Shown one piece after another: positions 7,701 to 63,572 of a stretch of DNA of 64,000 nt; position 1 is the first letter of the stretch; every line of letters starts with the position of its first letter. Source of the stretch: an uncultured Dehalococcoidia bacterium. GTDB taxonomy: Bacteria; Chloroflexota; Dehalococcoidia; Lucifugimonadales; UBA3495. Under the pieces are notes generated by a model that saw nothing but the letters and a program-made list of their open reading frames with translations, was not told where the DNA came from and made no database searches. A program made the position numbers and the translations under genes. The stretch is from assembly GCA_951813535.1 (NCBI GenBank), contig OX638345.1:1795158-1859157 (forward strand). The letters run 5' to 3'.

Positions 7701-7829
7701 CGTCAGAATCAGGATTTTCCAGATTAGAAGATTGACAGGATTGGGAATGTTCTACTGCTGTAAGGTTTCAATCTGGCCAATCCTGAAATCCCGAAAATCC
7801 TGATTCTGACAAATTTACGAAGGAAGGTA
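7701..7829. repeat. Dispersed palindromic repeat R, copy 1
   Basis: The unit opens with CGTCAGAATCAGGATT (7701) and closes with AATCCTGATTCTGAC (about 7796-7810), so its ends are inverted repeats. The inside is built from shorter AATCCTG-like words. The tail TTACGAAGGAAGGTAAC supplies the ribosome-binding site of the HAD gene at 7834. Related copies lie at 15535-15570/16775-16894 (split by an IS110 element) and 63333-63572. Confidence 0.8.
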
Positions 7830-15534: not shown

Positions 15535-15570
15535 CGTACCCACCTTGGACGGCGGTATCGTCAGAATCAG
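15535..15570. repeat. Dispersed repeat R, copy 2, left part (split by IS110 element)
   Basis: The sequence opens with CGTACCCACCTT, the outer end of the R element, and runs to CGTCAGAATCAG, then stops. The continuation (GGATTTGCCGGATTTATGG) is found at 16776, on the other side of the IS110-family element. The two parts joined give one normal R copy. Confidence 0.8.
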
Positions 15571-15593
15571 CAACTGTCTGTAAGGTCAAGGGG

Positions 15594-16565
15594 TTAGGCG
15601 GCAGCGGCAATAGGGTTTTGCCAGGGGGTGTGGGATTTGATGATGGCGTTGCAGATGGCGAGCAACTTGCGCATACACGCGGTGAGGGCGACCTTCTGGG
15701 CCTTGCCCGCGGCCAGCAGACGCTCATAACAGGCTCGGATGGCTGGGTTGCATCGGGTGGCCGCCAGGGTTGCCATGTACAAGGAGGCGCGCAACTGGCG
15801 TCGGCCGCCCCACACGGAGCGTTTGCCGCGCCATTGTCCGCTGTCCCGGTTGTAGGGAGCAACGCCAGCCAGGGCGGCGATCACCTTGGGGCTGGCGTGT
15901 CCCAGCTCGGGCAGTTGGGCGATCAGTGTGGAGACCAGTACTGGTCCCACGCCGGGGATGGAGCGCAGCAGTTTGGCTCGGGCTTGCCAGACGGCGTGGT
16001 CTTGCAGCAGTGCGGCGATGTCCTGGTCCAGTTGGGCCACTTGCCTTCCCAACAGCGCCAGGTGGTCGTCAATCTGGGCAACCACCAGTTCCGACGACAC
16101 CTGCCGCCGCCGGTTGCGCTCCTGGGTCTGCATGGCGACCAACTGACGGCGCCGGAACACCCAGGATCGCAACTCCCGCTGGGCCGCGTCGGGCAGGGGA
16201 CGTACCGGCGGACGCAGCGCGGCCCCGAACTGGGCCAGTGCCTGGGCGTCCAGCCGGTCGGTCTTGGCCAGACGTCCCGTAGCCCGGGCGAACTCCCGCA
16301 CCTGACGGGGATTGACCACCACTGCGGGCAGTCCGGCGGCGCCCAACTCCGCCACCAGCCGGGTTTCCAATCCCCCGGTGGCCTCCACGATGACCCGATG
16401 AGGCCGCAGCGGGATCAGTTCCGCCACCAGCTCGCTCAGGCTGGCATCGGTGTACTCCACACGCCAGGCCCGGTCTGCCGGAAACGCCCAACAATCCAGG
16501 CAAGCTTTGGACACGTCAATGCCAATGATTGTCATTGTCCCAGTGGTCATTGTCGCGGTGGTCAT
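15594..16565 (-). CDS. IS110-family DEDD recombinase
   Basis: The 323-residue protein has the RuvC-like N-terminal domain with D17 (IGIDVSK), E61 (VIVEATGG), D103 and D106 (KTDRLDA), giving the DEDD set, then a coiled helical middle and a C-terminal Transposase_20 domain (IPGVGPVLVSTLIAQLPELG) with the candidate catalytic serine S242 in NRDSGQWRGKR. The length and residue numbers resemble IS621. The frame is intact, so the element may be active. It acts with the bridge RNA encoded just upstream to join element and target at a CT core. Confidence 0.95.
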   Translation of the reverse strand: MTTATMTTGTMTIIGIDVSKACLDCWAFPADRAWRVEYTDASLSELVAELIPLRPHRVIVEATGGLETRLVAELGAAGLPAVVVNPRQVREFARATGRLAKTDRLDAQALAQFGAALRPPVRPLPDAAQRELRSWVFRRRQLVAMQTQERNRRRQVSSELVVAQIDDHLALLGRQVAQLDQDIAALLQDHAVWQARAKLLRSIPGVGPVLVSTLIAQLPELGHASPKVIAALAGVAPYNRDSGQWRGKRSVWGGRRQLRASLYMATLAATRCNPAIRACYERLLAAGKAQKVALTACMRKLLAICNAIIKSHTPWQNPIAAAA

Positions 16566-16609
16566 GATGTTTTACACTCCCCGTACCTTTGGTTTGGCGT
16601 AGCCGGCCA

Positions 16610-16765
16610 TTCCCGGACTACCCTGCCTTGCAATACGGGGTCTGGTCAGCCAGCCCCTCACAACTGTTCGGGTTAGCCAAGGGTGAACGACGCGGCGACC
16701 TTGCTGATTCACGGCTTCGCACAGCGAGCCCCAGGATTAACGGTCTGCCGCGTCGTTGGCTTCTT
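16610..16765 (-). ncRNA. IS110 bridge RNA (predicted)
   Basis: Two hairpins with large internal loops can be drawn on the minus strand. The target-binding loop (16756 to 16687) is closed by a perfect 10-bp stem (ACGACGCGGC/GCCGCGTCGT) and an inner hairpin GGCTCGC-TGT-GCGAAGCC. Its left guide AATCCTG (16738-16732) equals the target left of and across the core, and its right guide GAATCAG (16710-16704) is the reverse complement of the target CTGATTC. The donor-binding loop (16676 to 16618) has an inner stem GGGGCTGG/CCAGACCCC, a left guide ACAGTTG (16667-16661) equal to the element's right end, and a right guide TGCAAG (16632-16627) that pairs with its left end CTTGTA, with one G-T wobble. RNA ends are approximate. 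Confidence 0.88.
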
Positions 16766-16774
16766 CAAGATACA

Positions 16775-16894
16775 AGGATTTGCCGGATTTATGGATTATC
16801 AGGATTAGGAGTGCTCTGCCCCAAATGGTCTCAATCCTGTCAATCCCGTAATCCTGAAAATCCTGATTCTGATGAACTACCCGAAGTGGGTACG
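16775..16894. repeat. Dispersed repeat R, copy 2, right part
   Basis: This starts at the junction with the IS110 element (AGGATTTGCCGGATTTATGG) and ends with CCTGATTCTGATG...CCGAAGTGGGTACG, the outer end inverted with respect to CGTACCCACCTT at 15535. Bases about 16777-16835 are nearly identical, in reverse orientation, to about 63409-63470 in copy 3. Confidence 0.8.
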
Positions 16895-63332: not shown

Positions 63333-63572
63333 CGTACCCAGTATGGGCAGTCGGTCAGCATCAGGATTATCAGGATTCATGGATTGCCCGGCTTGAGGGA
63401 TTAGCCGGATTGAGACCATTTGGGGCCGAGCCCTCCTAATCCTGATAATCCATAAATCCGGCCAATCCTGATTCTGACGTTTCCCCGCCCGCAATGACGC
63501 AGAGCCCTCGTAATCCCGATAATCCATAAATCCGGCAAATCCTGATTCTGACGATTTACGAAGGTGGGTACG
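63333..63572. repeat. Dispersed palindromic repeat R, copy 3 (longest)
   Basis: The element is about 240 bp, opens with CGTACCCA, contains two internal units each ending AATCCTGATTCTGACG, and closes with AAGGTGGGTACG, the inverse of the opening. Bases 63409-63470 match copy 2 in reverse. Confidence 0.8.

Follow-up and report, generated by a model that had tools for sequence, protein, structure and literature searches.

We analysed a window of 64,000 nucleotides from an uncultured Dehalococcoidia bacterium, in which an IS110-group element of 1206 bp occupies positions 15571..16776 of the minus strand, from the core CT of its left end (LE) to the ACAGTTG of its right end (RE). The ends were set by aligning four copies of the element with their flanks, which when joined give an uninterrupted repeat. 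Read along the minus strand, the element starts at its 5' side with the core CT followed by the LE sequence CTTGTATCTT, and finishes at its 3' side with ACAGTTG, which the sequence places at 15571-15577. The core dinucleotide CT was located at 16775..16776 for the left junction and at 15569..15570 for the right junction, both from the four-copy flank comparison and the sequence. Adjoining them are the left target half AAATC (16777..16781, flanks of four copies and sequence) and the right target half GATTC (15564..15568, flanks of four copies), all on the minus strand. The noncoding LE, on the 5' side of the gene, measures 211 nt, and the RE just 23 nt. The element is complete by anatomy, and every sequence that an earlier note on this DNA had named was found on the minus strand where that note placed it.

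The gene of the element (15594..16565, minus strand) encodes an intact DEDD/Ser RNA-guided recombinase of 323 aa, as seen from matches to Pfam, NCBIfam and the PDB. Both PF01548 and PF02371 scored above cut-off, and so did NF033542, an NCBIfam equivalog titled 'IS110 family RNA-guided transposase', at 210 bits; a DEDD RuvC-like domain and a C-terminal Tnp domain with a catalytic Ser, as expected of the IS110 group, are present. The PDB matches were ISCro4 and IS621, and almost the full length of the protein aligns with these solved homologues. The frame, which the earlier note had called intact, is indeed open, and the catalytic residues D17, E61, D103, D106 and S242 that it listed are all in place. 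A TIGR-Tas endonuclease model also matched the recombinase weakly over 15594-16565 of the minus strand (30.5 bits, below cut-off). At the start of the gene we observed an in-frame tandem repeat of ATGACCACTGGGACA (window 16518-16565), present in L002 and L003 as well; the number of repeats differs between copies, giving N-termini of unequal length.

The host genome (4.38 Mb, one contig) carries four full copies of the element, with a protein identity of 95-100%. Every copy has AATC-CT-GATTCTGAC as its insertion site and lies in the same orientation at one particular end of the repeat, while the sequence past the repeat differs; no copy bearing the same loops was found at an unrelated target. 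The earlier note had claimed that the element interrupts a repeat, and joining the flanks restored, in 4/4 copies, an intact repeat of ~110 bp whose ends, GTCAGAATCAGGATT, are inverted; it can be aligned to 18 copies in the same genome that are not interrupted. In the window the interrupted repeat spans 15559..16873 of the minus strand, its arms being 16777-16873 and 15559-15570. In all four cases the joined flanks also place the insertion at the core dinucleotide, with no longer target duplication. The target sequence of the element is AATCCTGATTCTGAC. Exact matches to the 11-mer AATCCTGATTC numbered 90 in the genome, and the reversed control gave 0. Several genomes of the genus carry the repeat dozens of times, while it is essentially absent from 293 other genomes sampled from the class (three single hits). 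With this count and this genus-confined abundance, the idea that the near-palindromic repeat is a chance motif was rejected. It may be a MITE or a REP-like element; a literature search with the repeat sequence turned up nothing relevant. This genus-wide interspersed inverted repeat, with its arms of spaced AATCC/GGATT, was noted in the window at 7702-7810, 15559-16873 (the interrupted copy) and 63354-63552.

The RNA encoded by the LE folds into two hairpins with internal loops, as the earlier note had described, and the fold of the 209-nt region beats 200/200 shuffles (z -3.07). The target-binding loop hairpin (16686..16757, minus strand) has a 13-pair outer stem with compensatory change at 10 pairs among 19 relatives, and the donor-binding loop hairpin (16621..16683, minus strand) was delimited by the fold and by compensatory pairs. 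Across 19 related elements, 96.8% of the cells in these two hairpins (four helices, 25 pairs) are paired. Compensatory change is strong, since 16/25 pairs have changed on both sides, where slid controls give 2-3, and 0/500 shuffles reach the observed values. The wobble cells comprise 20 GU against 2 AC, which indicates that the structured RNA is on the recombinase-sense strand. The IS621 bridge RNA has a 5' stem-loop. Unlike IS621, our element has no such stem-loop ahead of the target loop, the first 13 nt being unpaired in the fold; a 5' hairpin can be seen in several relatives, whereas none is visible in L001, L046, L064 and L065.

Four guide segments can be assigned within these loops on the minus strand. 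The left target guide (LTG) AATCCTG, at 16732..16738, corresponds to the left target AATC, the core CT and a G, and is backed by a permutation test. The claim that it equals the left target with the core held over AATC and the core only, and failed at position -5, which is A in 4/4 targets and U in the RNA. The right target guide (RTG) GAATCAG, at 16704..16710, had been read as the exact complement of the right target with the core, and this it is: it is the reverse complement of CT-GATTC at 7/7 positions. In the donor loop, the left donor guide (LDG) ACAGTTG (16661..16667) is identical to the RE end, as proposed, and covaries with it in relatives. The right donor guide (RDG) TGCAAG (16627..16632) does pair with the LE start CTTGTA as had been supposed, with the reservation that one of the pairs is a G-T wobble.

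We compared guides and targets in related elements that range from 73% to about 47% identity, come from Chloroflexota, Nitrospira, Binatus and others, and have differing targets; a search of viral sequences gave one distant relative and no more. In 18 elements the loop was searched for the reverse complement of the core plus five right-target bases. The RTG matched its own target at 7/7 positions in 15 of them and at 6/7 in the remaining 3, where the odd base forms a G-T wobble, so that differing targets go with correspondingly differing guides, a comparison that the earlier note had proposed. The summed match of own guide with own target was 242 over the 18 elements; among 100,000 permutations the best reached 205, the mean was 170 and 0 were as good. 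Since close relatives with similar targets (e.g. L010, L071, L076) are included, the number of independent retargetings is below 18, yet the separation is large. The LDG likewise follows the RE end through the variants ACGGTTG, ACAGTCG and ATGATTG (132/133 letters; 4 of 100,000 permutations as good), though this test rests on few variants, ACAGTTG being common to most elements. These two covariations support the design with target and donor guides of IS621 type that had been suggested for this locus.

The nearest relative, L046 (73% identical), comes from a Chloroflexi MAG in the host's genus and has the same sequence as L063. Its RTG is TGAACAG, its left guide reads CATC-CT, and it is inserted at CATC-CT-GTTCA; its left flank is a partial copy of the LE, so the left match tells less than the right. 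At about 1230-1330 of L046, the first 49 bp of the LE, up to the LTG, form a tandem duplication whose two copies show three differences. The LTG being equal to the left target, short direct repeats arise at each insertion; slippage, or insertion into the guide of another copy, would both explain the duplication.

The anatomy, the RNA structure, the covariation of guides with targets and donor ends, the repeated use of one target and the restored empty site are all observed directly, and we consider the locus to be an IS110-group insertion sequence guided by its own bridge RNA, with a probability of about 0.96. In the mechanism we propose, the LE-encoded RNA would be bound by the recombinase, with one internal loop pairing with the two target strands (AATC-CT-GATTC) and the other with the joined ends of an excised circle (ACAGTTG-CT-TGTATC). 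Strand exchange at the CT core would then place the element in the end of the interspersed inverted repeat, with no target duplication. The ribonucleoprotein, the circle and the chemistry we infer by analogy with experiments on IS621 and ISEc21. The joined ends of the circle may in addition form a promoter for the bridge RNA: an RE segment carrying a -35 TTGACC (15578..15591, minus strand) would, in the circular form, meet the LE TATCTT across a 17-nt spacer, and the register is shared among elements. When RE was joined to LE, TTGAC(A/C/T)-17-TATCTT (TATATT in L075) was found in the same register in 18/21 elements, and the integrated junctions score below this promoter in nearly all of them. 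A promoter scan of the integrated LE found no ordinary promoter on either strand. RNA expression from an excised circle has been published for ISEc21 (PMC11187229), and the sequence of the RE-LE promoter would agree with such expression.

Recognition of the repeat by the recombinase protein itself, with the loop matches coincidental or left behind when target sequence was copied into the element, would also fit the use of one target by all four copies, taken alone. Guides and targets nevertheless change together among relatives with similar recombinases (L046, at 73% identity), and not one of the permutations equals the observed agreement; we therefore reject recognition by protein only and regard it as highly improbable. 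Membership in the IS1111 group, whose elements have the RNA downstream and subterminal inverted repeats, could be argued from the DEDD recombinases of the same superfamily. It is contradicted by the anatomy of the element, with its noncoding region upstream, its short RE and its RNA hairpins in the LE; it was rejected on these grounds, and we give it even less weight than protein recognition.

It is also conceivable, although we think it rather unlikely, that the element is dead, its RNA non-working and its four copies old relics. The ORFs of the copies do differ at 21-42 of about 970 positions (2-4%), which suggests that transposition was not very recent. Against this stand the open frame with its five intact catalytic residues and the bridge RNA loops, which are conserved above the ORF, with 0-1/157 differences between copies; the target loops are identical among all four. 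Moreover, the element was found at this identity in none of 13 further genomes examined from the genus, which points to spread at the species level. The intact parts, the four copies and the conservation of the RNA between them make it plausible that this bridge RNA-guided element is active.

All of these features are those of the published IS110 bridge RNA design (PMC11208160), and the locus is thus a newly found element of a known system. It resembles IS621 and ISCro4 (PMC11208160, PMC11208158; PDB 8wt6, 9t56) in the domains and catalytic residues of the recombinase and in the bridge RNA of the LE upstream of the gene, with the target loop followed by the donor loop. Shared too are an LTG that resembles a bottom-strand guide, an RTG that pairs with the top strand, the CT core, a predicted RE-LE junction promoter and the use of interspersed palindromic repeats as insertion sites. 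In IS621 the LTG is longer and the RTG measures 4 nt, whereas here the strong match is concentrated in an RTG of 7 nt (core+5) and the LTG is short (4+core). Some IS110 orthologues carry longer RTGs (PMC11208160), so this right-shifted guide balance is within the known range. The target also differs from those of IS621 and ISCro4, being an inverted repeat (AATCC/GGATT) that belongs to a single bacterial genus. With the ISEc21 seekRNA (PMC11187229) the element shares an upstream noncoding region and an RNA holding both target halves, and the natural redirection described there in a 72% identical relative has its counterpart here in L046. Unlike the ISEc21 seekRNA, for which 58-74 nt were described as sufficient, both loops are conserved in our elements. 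With its four copies and the empty targets in the same genome, the locus is an unusually clean natural test, by sequence only, of the bridge RNA model, and the retargeted relatives supply ready-made guide-target pairs for bench work.

An Rfam scan of the bridge RNA gave a sole credible match, sX15 (RF02234, a Xanthomonadaceae sRNA), at window 16599-16768 on the plus strand, opposite to the bridge RNA. The match spans the model from end to end (1-159) at 36.5 bits, below the gathering score. In six more relatives the same family also matches at the bridge RNA, with 52.4 bits in L064 (1083-1235), and in L085 the match at 2501-2659 is the reverse complement of the IS110 bridge RNA. The sX15 locus on plasmid pXCV183 of Xanthomonas euvesicatoria scores 150.9 bits, and its opposite strand is bridge-RNA-like and contains CCGAACAGTTG, after which comes a truncated IS110 recombinase start, MNGIGIDVCKAKLFVG; the Xanthomonas locus therefore sits on a decayed IS110 element. 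The family thus matches the same DNA at full length, yet is annotated on the strand opposite to the bridge RNA. To judge by these matches, sX15 is an IS110 bridge RNA locus annotated antisense, and this reverse-complement relation between RF02234 and a bridge RNA locus may be new. We would suggest, tentatively and with some doubt, that both strands of IS110 bridge RNA loci are transcribed and that sX15 is a natural antisense RNA, which, by binding to the bridge RNA, could hold transposition in check. Alternatively, the strand given for RF02234 may simply be wrong, or the family may describe incidental antisense transcription from a decayed copy. The sX15 link amends how an RNA family is annotated and turns antisense control into a testable question.

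Two other IS110 types were observed during the comparison. L006, L007 and L008 are near-identical copies of a second element (52% identical), which has the repeated target GATTCTGCCCC-CT-ACCGGAATC and an exact empty site at G000:C1:3366740. L005 represents a third type, which by eye appears to lie inside an IS1380-type transposase gene (AQRHN-CAGQRGYHPLL across the flanks).
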